DNA of 64,000 nt from a virus, in IMG/VR virus record IMGVR_UViG_3300019458_000021, positions 124,001 through 188,000 of that record; one strand, given 5' to 3'. The translations under genes and the position numbers were made by a program. Below, piece by piece: positions 59,443 to 64,000 of the stretch. The notes beneath the pieces were generated by a model. That model worked only from the letters and a program-made list of their open reading frames with translations, ran no database searches and was not told where the DNA came from. The number at the start of each line of letters is the position of its first letter. The first letter of the stretch is position 1.

Positions 59443-60681
59443 ATGACAACGTACGTAATCGATTTTTCGGACCCTCTTAAAGATGGGTTTTCGATCGCAC
59501 CAGGTGGATTCAACGGACCTGGCGGTTCTGCCTCAAATACATCTCTCCGTCTTTACGGTCGAGGCGCACTAGAATGGGGCGAATCTGTTAACGAAGACCT
59601 CGTCCGTCTTACAGAAAACTTCAACAGCGCTACACCACCTATTACACCAGTTGACGGTATGTTGTGGTTGCGAACAAAGTACTACTGGCTCCGCACGGCA
59701 GTTGATTGGTATGTTCGTGATCCTGATTCACCTGCTGCTTGGGTATTCCTGTCAACAATTGCAACCGGTGGTGTTGTCAACGGTGGTGCTGTAGGTACAA
59801 ACGTAGCTCCAGCTCACGCGATCGGTGTGTATTGGTACACAGGTGGTGCTCCAACTGATCCTCTGACATCGAACCTTGACGCGTTTGGTGACCCACTCAC
59901 ACCCACAACATTGTATCGTTGGGACTCAGCATACAAGCAAATTCCAGCCGGTTGGATGCCACAAGCATTCACACAAAATGCAGCTGCTCCAACTGCTGCA
60001 AACTTCCCGGAGAAGAGCTTGTTGGTTTGGGACGCGTTCCAGGGTGTTAGCGGAACGTTCGTTGCTCCACCAATTTCGATTGTTGCACCAACTCAACCAG
60101 CACAGGCAACGGAAGGTACATTGTGGTGGGATAGTGTCAACAACATTCTGTATGTGTGGAACGATTTCACGACAACATGGCAGCCATTGGTTACAGGAGG
60201 CGGTGGCGGATCTGGTGATACGACTTATCTACGTCTTGATGGCACAAACACACCAACAGCTAACCTAAACATTGGTGGCTTCCGTCTGACAAACATTACA
60301 ACAAACGTAGGTGTAGCAACTGACGCTTTGAGTGTCGGTGCCGCCGATACTCGTTACGTAAACATAACCGGTGATACAATGACTGGCGTGCTGGCGATGG
60401 GTGCATTCAACATCACCGGCCTACCTGTCATGTCTTACCCTGACTTGGTCAACACCGAGTTTGCAGCAACAAAGAACTACGTTAATACTGCAGTCACGTC
60501 GATTACAAGCGGTGGCGGTTCGGTTACTGTTCCGTCGGTGTTTGTATCGCCAGCAGTTCCGACCTATAAGGCTGGTGACATCTATGTCTTGGGCGCTGTG
60601 ATCTACATTGCTATCGGCGTAGGTGTAGGTGCTCCTCCGGGTGGTAACTGGCGACAAGTGTTCCCAGCACAGTACTCATAA
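59443..60681 (+). CDS. Virion structural protein, short fibre/collar type
   Basis: A 412-residue protein. The N-terminus (YVIDFSDPLKDGFSIAPGGFNGPGG, then TSLRLYGRGALEWGESVNEDLVRLTENF) is a module I recognise from many phage structural proteins. The middle has repeated W-x-D elements (PVDGMLWLRTKYYW, GTLWWDSVNNILYVWND). Then come the fibre motifs YLRLDGTNTPTANLNIGGFRL, VNITGDTMTGVLAM and FAATKNYVNTAV, and a final beta tip (PSVFVSPAVPTYKAGDIYVLG). It has its own late promoter. Likely a short tail fibre, wedge-attached fibre or whisker component. Confidence 0.6.
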   Translation: MTTYVIDFSDPLKDGFSIAPGGFNGPGGSASNTSLRLYGRGALEWGESVNEDLVRLTENFNSATPPITPVDGMLWLRTKYYWLRTAVDWYVRDPDSPAAWVFLSTIATGGVVNGGAVGTNVAPAHAIGVYWYTGGAPTDPLTSNLDAFGDPLTPTTLYRWDSAYKQIPAGWMPQAFTQNAAAPTAANFPEKSLLVWDAFQGVSGTFVAPPISIVAPTQPAQATEGTLWWDSVNNILYVWNDFTTTWQPLVTGGGGGSGDTTYLRLDGTNTPTANLNIGGFRLTNITTNVGVATDALSVGAADTRYVNITGDTMTGVLAMGAFNITGLPVMSYPDLVNTEFAATKNYVNTAVTSITSGGGSVTVPSVFVSPAVPTYKAGDIYVLGAVIYIAIGVGVGAPPGGNWRQVFPAQYS

Positions 60682-60732: not shown

Positions 60733-61908
60733 ATGACAGGAGCTGCAGTCTCATTCTACAAGCGATCTGACGCGGGTACATTGCGTAAGCATACACCGTC
60801 AGCATTCAAAACAGCTCCCCTTGCAATTGCTCCTCAGCTAATGCTGACAGAGCTAATGGTGTATTTGAAGACGACTGAAACCTGTCAACTCAACTGCGCA
60901 CACTGCTTCACCAACGGAATCAACGGACGAAAAATCTACTTCGATCCAGCTCGAACAATCGATTGGTTCCATCGTCTCCATGCAGTAAATCCAACCCTGG
61001 CGGGAGGAAGTGTCGCTTTTCATGGTGGGGAGCCAATGCTTGCTCCAATCGCCGATATGCGTCGTACATGGGAAGCGTGCAAGGATTTGTGGCCAACAGT
61101 TTGGTGGACAACAACGACAAACCTTGTATACAAACTCGACGATGAAAAGCGCCTATTCTTCAAGGAATGCTTTACAGACGGCATCTCAACTTCTTGGGAC
61201 AAGAATATCCGATTTGATAACGAAAAACAGGAAGCTCTGTGGGCTAAAAACGTCCAAACACTTCTCGATGATGGGCATAAGATCACGCTTATGGTAAGCT
61301 TAAATCGTGCGATCACTGATATGAACCCGGAAGATTTCCTGCGTTGGGTTGGTGATATCGGCGTTCACTATTTGCATCTTGAACGAATCACCCCAAATGG
61401 TAACGCAACTCGCAACCCACACATCCTTCCTTCAAATAAAGAACTCGATGCTTGGATGCTGCGATTATGGGATGCAAGTTTGAAGCTTGGCACACATAAG
61501 TACTTTGCTAATCTGTTTTTGAACGGAATTTTGTCGAGCTTTGTGTCATTAACACATTCGGGTTGTCGTTGTCGAAGTTGCGAGAAGAAGATTTTCACCC
61601 TGAACGCAGATGGAACAATTGGCGGATGTCCAAACAGTGCAGTAGACAACACGTTCGGAACAATGGAAGATGATATTTTCTCGTTGCTTAGCAGCGAGGG
61701 GCGAATCGAAAACATTGCTTGTGAAACACAACGCAATCCGCTGTGCTACACGTGCGATGTTTATGACGTTTGCAACGGTGATTGTCACCAACTTGCATGG
61801 GAAGGCGACGTTTGTGCAAGTCCGAAATCGTTGATGCGTCGATTCAAAGCAGAGAACAATAGAGAACAGTATGAGATGTTCCTTAACGGGTTCATCGGCA
61901 AGGAGTAA
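60733..61908 (+). CDS. Radical SAM/SPASM peptide maturase
   Basis: A 391-residue enzyme. The radical SAM cluster is C51-x3-C55-x2-C58 (ETCQLNCAHCF), with the SAM-binding GGEP motif at 98-101 (VAFHGGEPM). The C-terminal auxiliary-cluster SPASM domain is complete: C283...G294-x4-C299, then C338-x2-C341-x5-C347-x3-C351, then C361, plus C278, C280 and C330. SPASM enzymes (anSME, RiPP and His-Xaa-Ser-type maturases) modify Cys, Ser or other residues of peptides or proteins. The next gene, three bases away, ends in a Cys-His-Ser-Ser repeat tail, a strong substrate candidate. An anSME-like or unrelated activity is possible. Confidence 0.88.
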   Translation: MTGAAVSFYKRSDAGTLRKHTPSAFKTAPLAIAPQLMLTELMVYLKTTETCQLNCAHCFTNGINGRKIYFDPARTIDWFHRLHAVNPTLAGGSVAFHGGEPMLAPIADMRRTWEACKDLWPTVWWTTTTNLVYKLDDEKRLFFKECFTDGISTSWDKNIRFDNEKQEALWAKNVQTLLDDGHKITLMVSLNRAITDMNPEDFLRWVGDIGVHYLHLERITPNGNATRNPHILPSNKELDAWMLRLWDASLKLGTHKYFANLFLNGILSSFVSLTHSGCRCRSCEKKIFTLNADGTIGGCPNSAVDNTFGTMEDDIFSLLSSEGRIENIACETQRNPLCYTCDVYDVCNGDCHQLAWEGDVCASPKSLMRRFKAENNREQYEMFLNGFIGKE

Positions 61909-61910
61909 CT

Positions 61911-62564
61911 ATGGCTATCGCTGGCACAGACATCACGAAAGACAATATCACTGGATCAGGTGGCGTTGACTTGAACTCGTTCAAGCAACAAATCACCGAC
62001 GTTGTCAACGCACTCACAAAAACAACAAGCGTGTCCGCAAACGGGACTGCACTAGGTCAAAAGCCATTTGGTAGTGGTGCACCAATTAGTGGATCGTTGT
62101 CAAGCACCAACTATGGTGGAACACCTCCTCTGTCTGCGCCACTTGTCGCTCCTGGCACGGTGACGAATTCACCACAAGCAAGTGACATTGCAGGTGCGAA
62201 CATTGCAGCAGCCACTCTGATCACATTGTTCCAAAACACAGCTGTATTACTGTCCCGTGTTCGTCGCTATTCAATGGTAAAAACATACCTTAGTCCAGCG
62301 CCTGTTATCCAACTATCACTTACAGAACCAGGCCGCTATGGTTATCTGACAACAACGTACCAAGCAAATCCAGCAACAACAACACCAGCAATCACGACAT
62401 CTTTGGCAGCTCTTACTGGCGATATTAGTGCAGCAACGTTAAACACAGTAATTGACAACGTTGACACCGCAATTACGAACCACAGAAACACAACCGTCGC
62501 GTTCACGGAAACGTGGTGTCACTCAAGCTGTCACAGCAGTCATAGTTCAAGGAACCGTCGCTAA
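61911..62564 (+). CDS. Virion-like protein with Cys/His/Ser repeat tail, putative radical SAM substrate
   Basis: A 217-residue protein. Residues 1-195 are an ordinary structural-protein-like domain (ITKDNITGSGGVDLNSFKQQITDVV; ANIAAATLITLFQNTAVLLSRVRRYSMVKTY). The last 16 residues are WCHSSCHSSHSSRNRR: three (C)HSS units ending in a basic cap. This is unlike the body of the protein and resembles His-Xaa-Ser and RiPP core peptides. No other proteolytic or leader motif is visible. The adjacent SPASM enzyme would be the modifying partner; modification in the virion is an inference. Confidence 0.7.
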   Translation: MAIAGTDITKDNITGSGGVDLNSFKQQITDVVNALTKTTSVSANGTALGQKPFGSGAPISGSLSSTNYGGTPPLSAPLVAPGTVTNSPQASDIAGANIAAATLITLFQNTAVLLSRVRRYSMVKTYLSPAPVIQLSLTEPGRYGYLTTTYQANPATTTPAITTSLAALTGDISAATLNTVIDNVDTAITNHRNTTVAFTETWCHSSCHSSHSSRNRR

Positions 62565-63328
62565 TGACCACAGTTACAACAGAACTTCCGCTTTCAATGG
62601 ACGCCTTGCGTCAGGTAATTACACAACCAGATGCAGGAGTGGTTGTTGACTACAACAACAGTAACCTCAAAGGCCGTGCAGCGCTCATTTACATGACGAA
62701 TACAAACTTACCAAATGTTGCTCTGAACATGACAGATGTGTCTCTCGAAGAGAAGTTTGTACTCGTTGACGACTACATCACTCACAAGTCAATCCTGCAT
62801 GTAGCACAACTAGTCAACACCGTTTTGAATGTGTTATTCGCCGTTCGGAAAGTTGACATTGGTGCTGAACAAGACATATTGGATCAAGTGTCGCTATTTC
62901 CACAAGAACATGTCGGCGAATATCTTGCAAATCCAACACGAGCTGAACACATCAACAAGCTGATTGAACTTCTCGACAGTCTACCTCTGTACGCTGTAAC
63001 GTGTTCAACATCATTCCGCGAAGTATACGGTAAAGGAAAAGAAGCGTTTGAGCCGGTTAACGACATTGATCATACTGGTTTCACATTCGTCCACCTGTTG
63101 ACTCATCCGTTGTTCCTCGAATATTTCACACAACCAGCTACGACGACACTGAAGTATTACGTTCAGCAGTTCGACGAGTACATGTATAACGGAAAATCGT
63201 TGTTTCCATTTTTGGTAAACTCGCCTGTATTCGGTATTCTTGAGTGTTACATCACAGGGGCGGTGGACCTTGATCAGCTGCTTACAGCACACTCAGAAAT
63301 GAATGCTTTGGAAGGAGCTGCAGCCTAA
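62564..63328 (+). CDS. Unknown protein downstream of the putative substrate
   Basis: A 254-residue protein overlapping the upstream stop by one base. It is mostly helical (SILHVAQLVNTVLNVLFAVRKVDIG, EHINKLIELLDSLPLYAVTCST, FVHLLTHPLFLEYFTQPATTTLKYYVQQFDEYMYNGKSLFPFL) with an N-terminal beta part. No catalytic or zinc motif and no CHSS-type tail. Because it is translationally coupled to the CHSS protein it may act in the same assembly. Confidence 0.45.
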   Translation: MTTVTTELPLSMDALRQVITQPDAGVVVDYNNSNLKGRAALIYMTNTNLPNVALNMTDVSLEEKFVLVDDYITHKSILHVAQLVNTVLNVLFAVRKVDIGAEQDILDQVSLFPQEHVGEYLANPTRAEHINKLIELLDSLPLYAVTCSTSFREVYGKGKEAFEPVNDIDHTGFTFVHLLTHPLFLEYFTQPATTTLKYYVQQFDEYMYNGKSLFPFLVNSPVFGILECYITGAVDLDQLLTAHSEMNALEGAAA

Positions 63329-64000
63329 TGCTACACCTGTTCAACAAGATATACGTCAAGGGAGATCATCTTGTGAAAGGTTCGCGAGATGCAATTATCA
63401 TCTCGCCGACCTATGGAAATGTTCCATTTTACACGACGAAATTCTCAACTCGGGCAAACAACGAAAAAACAGGCCAACTGTGCTATTCAGCAACGTCGCT
63501 CAAAGAACTGCTCGACACTCACTTTGGTGGATCTGATGCAAAATTCTTCAATTACCTCATGAAATGGCCTGCCGAGAAACGATTAACGATCTACGCCGAT
63601 CTTCCGACAATGGTTGATATTGCAACGAGATTCTTCAAAACAGTATTCCCAAAGATGACGGAAGACACATATGTTGTGGTGATGAAGTTACTGCTCTCCC
63701 GTATCAACTACTACCTAGGCGGAGCTGTTTTGCCATTCGTAACATTAACAGAGGACCAGGCAAATTCATACCGCGTCGAAACACTTCAAATTCTTGAAGA
63801 TGTTGCTGGATTGCGCCATCGATTTCAAGAAACTGCACGCTGGCGCCTGACAAAAGTGGCACGTGACAGTATCATCCGCAACTGCAGCGTTGAATACCAA
63901 TTGGCGACCTATCTAACAAATCCAAAATGGGCACATGCTCGTGCGTTTGAGAAAAAGGCTGTGTCAATGGCTAAGAAGCAAATCATTCACGAATATGCTC
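63328..64000 (+). CDS. Unknown protein, 3' end outside the window
   Basis: Starts with ATG overlapping the upstream stop (TAATG) and stays open to the window edge (224 residues visible). N-terminal beta part: MLHLFNKIYVKGDHLVKGSRDAIIISPTYG; then KFFNYLMKWPAEKRLTIYADLPTMVDIATRFFKTVFPKMTEDTYVVVMKLLLSRINYY; then ILEDVAGLRHRFQETARWRLTKVARDSIIRN. No family recognised. Part of the same unit as the radical SAM gene. Confidence 0.5.
   Translation, partial: MLHLFNKIYVKGDHLVKGSRDAIIISPTYGNVPFYTTKFSTRANNEKTGQLCYSATSLKELLDTHFGGSDAKFFNYLMKWPAEKRLTIYADLPTMVDIATRFFKTVFPKMTEDTYVVVMKLLLSRINYYLGGAVLPFVTLTEDQANSYRVETLQILEDVAGLRHRFQETARWRLTKVARDSIIRNCSVEYQLATYLTNPKWAHARAFEKKAVSMAKKQIIHEYA

Follow-up and report, generated by a model that had tools for sequence, protein, structure and literature searches.

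A radical SAM/SPASM enzyme paired with a repeat-tailed neighboring protein in large phages: a candidate maturation system for a virion protein

Bacteria are known to use radical SAM enzymes to modify peptide natural products, and several described systems lie close to the gene pair reported here. The Hxs system (HxsA/HxsB/HxsC/HxsD; TIGR03979, TIGR03978, TIGR03977) encodes a radical SAM enzyme with a His-Xaa-Ser repeat protein. Anaerobic sulfatase maturases (anSMEs; TIGR03942, PDB entry 4k37) have two auxiliary clusters and a catalytic Asp after an auxiliary-cluster Cys, and the sulfatase signature is C-x-[PA]-S-R. The dynobactin and darobactin maturases, DynA and DarE, carry out peptide crosslinking chemistry, including at His for dynobactin. 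Finally, the triceptide makers YhhB, HaaB, MscB, OscB/GrrM, and FxsB are SPASM radical SAM enzymes; HaaB and YhhB join the C2 of His to the C-beta of the residue at i+2 (Ala and Arg, respectively), MscB joins Phe to Ser, and His is a ring residue in cyclophanes (PMC11002830).

The locus studied here lies in a window of 64,000 nucleotides that belongs to a 237-kb virus record (IMG/VR record IMGVR_UViG_3300019458_000021). The window encodes a tail sheath, a tail tube, a large terminase, and a UvsX-like recombinase, which makes the label "T4-like" given by the original prediction a reasonable one.

The enzyme, its tailed neighbor, and their linkage

The enzyme gene, rSAM1 (positions 60,733 to 61,908, plus strand; 391 amino acids), encodes a radical SAM/SPASM maturase that we propose as the tail-modifying enzyme. 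The CX3CX2C motif (C51-x3-C55-x2-C58), GGEP motif (HGGEP at 97–101), and SPASM cysteine pattern (G294-x4-C299, C338-x2-C341-x5-C347-x3-C351, then C361) reported by the original prediction are all present, and an extra CRxC pair (C280/C283) can be added to its list. With CX3CX2C and the full set of auxiliary cluster cysteines, the protein belongs to the radical SAM/SPASM class, and the SPASM model TIGR04085 scored it at 23.7 bits, slightly below the cut-off of 27. Across 102 relatives, conservation is 99–100% for each of the eleven cluster cysteines and likewise for the HGGEP, TSWD, ERxTxxGxA, and GGCxN motifs.

Profile searches place the enzyme in phrog_1802 (196 bits, residues 33–380), a family known by domain name alone, for which the link to a substrate is new. 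NCBIfam models for sulfatase maturase, DynA, PapB, and YhhB matched it weakly. The top match was sulfatase_rSAM TIGR03942, at 42 bits against a cut-off of 349.45, and DynA and DarE ranked second and third; YhhB scored 23.3 bits against a cut-off of 445, with XyeB, FxsB, and AmcB lower still. For all curated NCBIfam maturase models, those of cyclophane makers among them, the enzyme scores well under the cut-off. Profile matches in the PDB were 8vpo, 4k37 (anSME), and 5wgg, which we take to be CteB. No RiPP recognition domain was identified, and no precursor or export genes related to those of dynobactin and darobactin were seen. A reading as a defense gene was dropped, the weak viperin matches reflecting the radical SAM fold.

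The proposed substrate is encoded at positions 61,911 to 62,564 (plus strand; 217 amino acids). Its open reading frame begins 3 bases past the last base of the enzyme stop codon and ends in WCHSSCHSSHSSRNRR, in agreement with the spacing and tail originally reported. This C-terminal tail (positions 62,514 to 62,561, plus strand) consists of three (C)HxS units followed by RxRR. The CHSS repeat of the original prediction held as a C-terminal repeat and was refined by comparison with relatives: the general motif is (CHx[S/N/A])3-5 at the C terminus, with RxRR after it in most proteins and the Cys dispensable in single units. The window's tail is a variant with one Cys lost; the tail at L019:7096-7662 has five units, and that at L235:4283-4915 (CHSSHSSHSSHSSRGRR) has four, of which only the first retains its Cys.

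Unit statistics were taken from 66 unique tails, picked by their position after the enzyme and comprising 198 units in which His was a requirement of the parse. Cys is present in 193 of these units, x is mostly Ser, Gly, or Ala, and the +2 residue is Ser in 151, Asn in 37, and Ala in 10; Thr, Gly, and Cys were permitted at +2 and were seen in none of the 198. All three His columns are invariant in an 87-row alignment. In the window's tail and that of its close relative, Cys is absent from one unit, in which His and the +2 residue are kept. Within the main family, the median pairwise identity is 25% for the bodies and 81% for the tails. The middle-unit codons are split evenly between TGC and TGT (20/20) and between CAC and CAT (20/20), and both Ser codon classes occur; synonymous codons are thus mixed at fixed residues, so that the tail is fixed at the protein level.

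The tailed protein matched no NCBIfam or Pfam model, and BLAST against phages returned nothing, because its body diverges too fast. The tail peptides alone gave no database match by tblastn, for whose statistics they are too short. An AlphaFold model of the window's protein has a helix-strand-strand-helix-strand core (mean pLDDT 71). In the AlphaFold models, a helix-strand-strand-helix core precedes a tail modeled with low confidence, and the long and short families share this order; hhalign of their bodies alone gave a probability of 12%. In a viral fold library, the window's model resembles Atu_ph07 gp170 and a few other uncharacterized proteins. A fold search of the short-family and window models against the PDB found nothing significant, so the fold points to no function. 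The same predicted fold occurs in three larger proteins of a single phage, Myoviridae sp. ctijX18 (BFVD A0A8S5USJ7, A0A8S5USJ8, and A0A8S5USV2).

Among annotated phages, homologues of the enzyme occur in seven records only: Agrobacterium Atu_ph07 (two records), Sinorhizobium Phosso, three Burkholderia phages, and Pseudomonas DT01. The gene after the enzyme encodes a tailed protein, annotated "hypothetical," in 6/6 annotated phage genomes. The tails read FCHSSCHASCHNSRSRR in Atu_ph07, YCHTSCHASCHSSRSRR in Phosso, VCHSSCHTSCHGSRGRR in Burkholderia, and ICHTSCHTSCHSARGRR in Pseudomonas, and scarcely anything beyond them aligns.

Viral contigs were scanned in both directions. The enzyme-first scan yielded 361 relatives, and in the best 80 of these a (C)HxS tail ended a protein downstream of the enzyme, mostly directly, in 73 of 73 testable contigs, the remaining 7 ending too early for the tail to be judged. 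The motif-first scan used a degenerate DNA pattern (CHx[S]CHx[S]CHx[S]RxRR) that was blind to the enzyme, the stop codon, and position; it returned at least 120 stretches, compared with 1 for the reversed pattern. Among the matches listed, almost all were the last codons of an open reading frame, the tail lay directly downstream of the enzyme in 57 of 61 distinct single-copy matches with an enzyme in the stretch, and 24 of 28 contigs without one there carried it elsewhere, the four exceptions being fragments of 18–39 kb. In scans of the same kind of contigs, an HSS-only variant gave zero matches, and the window's variant pattern matched only its own relative.

The association between enzyme and tail is far beyond chance. 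The original prediction had named tails lacking a linked SPASM gene in related phages as evidence against the pairing; the opposite was found, with the association near-complete both ways in the sampled viral contigs. We regard it as highly likely that the tailed protein is the substrate of the neighboring enzyme. In a second tail class, two short tailed proteins (about 125–140 amino acids) stand in tandem and the enzyme lies elsewhere on the contig. One 151-kb viral contig (L139:7783-8555, L152:1027-2670) carries both tail classes and two enzyme paralogues, which suggests a separate enzyme for each substrate class. All tails that end in Ile or Leu, without RxRR, go with a single enzyme clade (support 100), a match that fits co-evolution and also plain descent. 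In all, hundreds of environmental viral contigs carry the pair, as do cultured phages of Agrobacterium, Sinorhizobium, Burkholderia, and Pseudomonas, which makes the system testable at once.

Virion location of the tailed protein

The gene for the tailed protein maps to tail-gene regions, and this position suggests that the protein is part of the tail apparatus. Directly upstream of the enzyme gene, across a gap of 51 bp, lies a gene for a tail-fiber-like protein (positions 59,443 to 60,681, plus strand; 412 amino acids) with weak PHROG matches to phrog_18671 (2.2e-8), phrog_14394 (virion structural protein), and phrog_16472/4465 (tail fiber).

Published proteomics bears on the same question. 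In Atu_ph07, virion proteins detected by ESI-MS/MS fall mostly in the clusters CDS 31–76, 170–215, and 284–329 (PMC6102473). The tailed protein of Atu_ph07 is gp170, the first CDS of the second cluster, and the numbering agrees, as gp215 is the major head protein in both the paper and the record (PMC6102473). Judged from this cluster boundary, gp170 is likely present in Atu_ph07 virions. The tailed protein is thus probably a virion protein, a reading supported by that proteome. The description of the protein as structural in the original prediction gains from the tail-gene setting and from gp170 opening a virion cluster (PMC6102473).

Predicted chemistry of the tail

Compared with the Hxs system, the pair has the same general plan, and the comparison made by the original prediction stands as an analogy of an enzyme encoded with a repeat protein. 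Membership was dropped, as no Hxs model was reached: HxsA (TIGR03979) matched nothing in the genome at E ≤ 10, HxsB (TIGR03978) had no match in the window's genome, and HxsC (TIGR03977) scored at most 32.6 bits against a cut-off of 267.9, and then with other cassette genes. Unlike in Hxs, the units number only 3–5 and are restricted to the C terminus of a protein of the phage tail region, usually with Cys ahead of them and RxRR after them. The likeness to triceptides is one of enzyme class and of motif: the aromatic-x-X3 pattern fits, with His at i and Ser, Asn, or Ala at i+2, and H-x-[S/N/A] units occur in 66 of 66 unique tails, His being required by the parse. In contrast to the short triceptide precursors, the substrate here is a protein of 125–300 amino acids, and its reaction is a prediction. 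The system resembles Hxs and the triceptides and is a member of neither.

From the residue pattern, we tentatively rank first a three-residue His-x-Ser cyclophane, in which His would be joined to the C-beta of the residue at i+2. This chemistry is placed ahead of a thioether because His is never lost, the +2 residue varies among Ser, Asn, and Ala, Cys is dispensable in a given unit, and the known makers join i to i+2. A reaction at C-beta suits all three +2 residues, which formylglycine or Ser-oxygen chemistry does not tolerate. The YhhB model is also among those matched by all seven enzyme members. Against the cyclophane stands the Cys in 193 of 198 units, which is more than a pure His-x-Ser reaction requires.

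In the mechanism that we propose, the enzyme would bind the product of the neighboring gene and act on the C-terminal tail of that protein, modifying the (C)H-x-S units probably one at a time. A 5'-deoxyadenosyl radical would abstract a hydrogen from the C-beta of the +2 residue (Ser, Asn, or Ala), and this carbon would then bond to the His imidazole, with a loss of 2 Da per unit. The resulting stiffened, Cys/His-rich tail might serve the tail or fiber apparatus, for instance by providing an attachment point or a tip that is stable or binds metal.

The conserved Cys raises the possibility, in our view a rather doubtful one, that the enzyme instead makes Cys-based thioether crosslinks of the sactipeptide or ranthipeptide type, from Cys to a residue of a neighboring unit. 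The ranthipeptide maturase PapB is matched by all seven members (best 2e-13) and 5wgg by profile, and the enzyme has two fully ligated auxiliary clusters. However, one unit in the tails of the window and its close relative, and 3 of 4 units in L235, lack Cys, and in these units His and the +2 residue stay. Of the crosslink or thioether originally proposed, the crosslink is kept, as a predicted His-centered bond from i to i+2, and the thioether is disfavored by the residue pattern.

Two further alternatives concern the fate of the tail. It is improbable that the body of the tailed protein acts as the long leader of a RiPP precursor, from which a matured tail is cleaved as a small product active against hosts or competitors. 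A variable body, a fixed C-terminal core, and a dedicated radical SAM enzyme do form a RiPP precursor architecture, and Bdellovibrionota carry chromosomal cassettes; the tail-gene setting and the place of gp170 at the start of a virion cluster (PMC6102473) speak against it. In the cassettes examined, no gene is annotated as, or evidently encodes, a transporter or leader peptidase. Slightly less probable still is a reading in which the tail is left unmodified and forms a Cys/His metal site on a structural protein, with the radical SAM enzyme acting elsewhere. Cys/His repeats are able to bind Zn, Fe, or Cu, and phage fiber and spike tips frequently bind metal, but metal ligation alone explains neither the conservation of Ser, Asn, or Ala at +2 nor the strict spacing, and the linkage to one specific enzyme is near-complete in both directions across hosts.

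The least probable reading makes the enzyme a formylglycine-generating relative of the anSMEs, with which it shares domain layout and two auxiliary clusters, that oxidizes Cys or Ser in a C-H-x-S-R end: although TIGR03942 is its top NCBIfam match and a CHASR end resembles the sulfatase signature, the anSME Asp after the auxiliary-cluster Cys (...YPCDF) is replaced by Pro or Ala and then an invariant Asn (GGC[PA]N), some units have Asn or Ala at +2, the tail positions extend beyond Cys and Ser, and the tails of the Ile/Leu clade lack Arg.

Returning to modification of the tail by its neighboring enzyme, we consider it very probable that these phages chemically remodel a virion protein of their own. 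The explanation as a whole, in which the phage encodes a RiPP-like system for maturing a virion protein, we favor on balance, with its modification, chemistry, and role all deduced by comparison. We found no earlier description of the pair in the open-access literature searched, in line with the original prediction, which knew of none in a T4-like phage, and a text search for the tail sequence itself brought up no paper of relevance. Papers on these phages give radical SAM genes without a substrate, the term radical SAM is absent from a comparative review of jumbo phages, and the same literature yielded no description of a virus using radical SAM modification on its own particle. Virion modification, if shown, would potentially define a new category.

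The conserved cassette and its relatives

The enzyme gene and the tailed gene are part of a conserved cassette that lies in the tail-gene region and combines several radical SAM enzymes with 2OG-Fe oxygenases. The tailed gene is followed by a phrog_20767 protein (positions 62,564 to 63,328, plus strand; 1.1e-35) and by a second conserved protein, phrog_36207, of which the window holds the start (positions 63,328 to 64,000, plus strand; 367 amino acids, running past the window). The overall order is the tailed gene, phrog_20767, two phrog_36207-like genes, four further radical SAM genes with two 2OG-Fe(II) oxygenase genes, which lie past the window's end, and then tail-fiber-like genes. Several of the cassette paralogues of the enzyme also belong to phrog_1802. 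Just downstream of the window (L212:9328-18758), the cassette also holds a likely homing-endonuclease gene, and a phrog_36207-like protein there (L212:9328-10428) weakly matches the PADLOC candidate defense model PDC-S05 (7.5e-7).

In Atu_ph07, Phosso, DT01, and Bdellovibrionota, the gene after that of the tailed protein encodes a protein that, judged by eye, resembles phrog_20767. Six radical SAM genes, two 2OG-Fe oxygenase genes, and a cupin gene lie near a central-spike gene in Pseudomonas DT01. In Burkholderia S13, the genes near a baseplate gene include two for 2OG-Fe oxygenases, one for a cupin, and at least four for radical SAM enzymes. One contig (L146:1-9424) contains about nine radical SAM-like open reading frames, recognized by cysteine motif only, of which five have a CxxxCxGCF-type motif; its cassette adjoins two tandem tailed proteins.

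The other radical SAM enzymes and the oxygenases may further modify the tailed protein or neighboring tail proteins. In the widest reading, to which we give slightly less than even weight, a widespread viral system would use 2OG-Fe oxygenases and as many as about nine radical SAM enzymes, encoded in one cassette, to build non-standard crosslinked residues into virion proteins; the (C)HxS tail would be a portable modification tag, found on two or more protein families that show no detectable relation in sequence, and copies would be shared with predatory bacteria. If true, this would add a new layer of phage virion chemistry. The maturation system would also account for many puzzling radical SAM genes in several large phages, provide a new kind of virion building block, and supply natural enzymes potentially able to place crosslinks at the C terminus of folded proteins.

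Chromosomal contigs from Bdellovibrionota MAGs also carry relatives of the cassette, away from tail genes and in some cases together with a tailed protein, and the exact tail motif occurs in only 3 of 129 genomes of one Bdellovibrionota class. In several Bdellovibrionota contigs, from relatives of predatory bacteria (L222, L223, L228, and L257–L260), the same radical SAM set lies beside prepilin-like and Tat-signal-like genes. Two phage-like contigs assigned to Rhodobacteraceae Water_Bin34 (L231 and L232) carry tandem tailed proteins, a radical SAM cassette, and a fiber-like gene, and are probably binned phage DNA.
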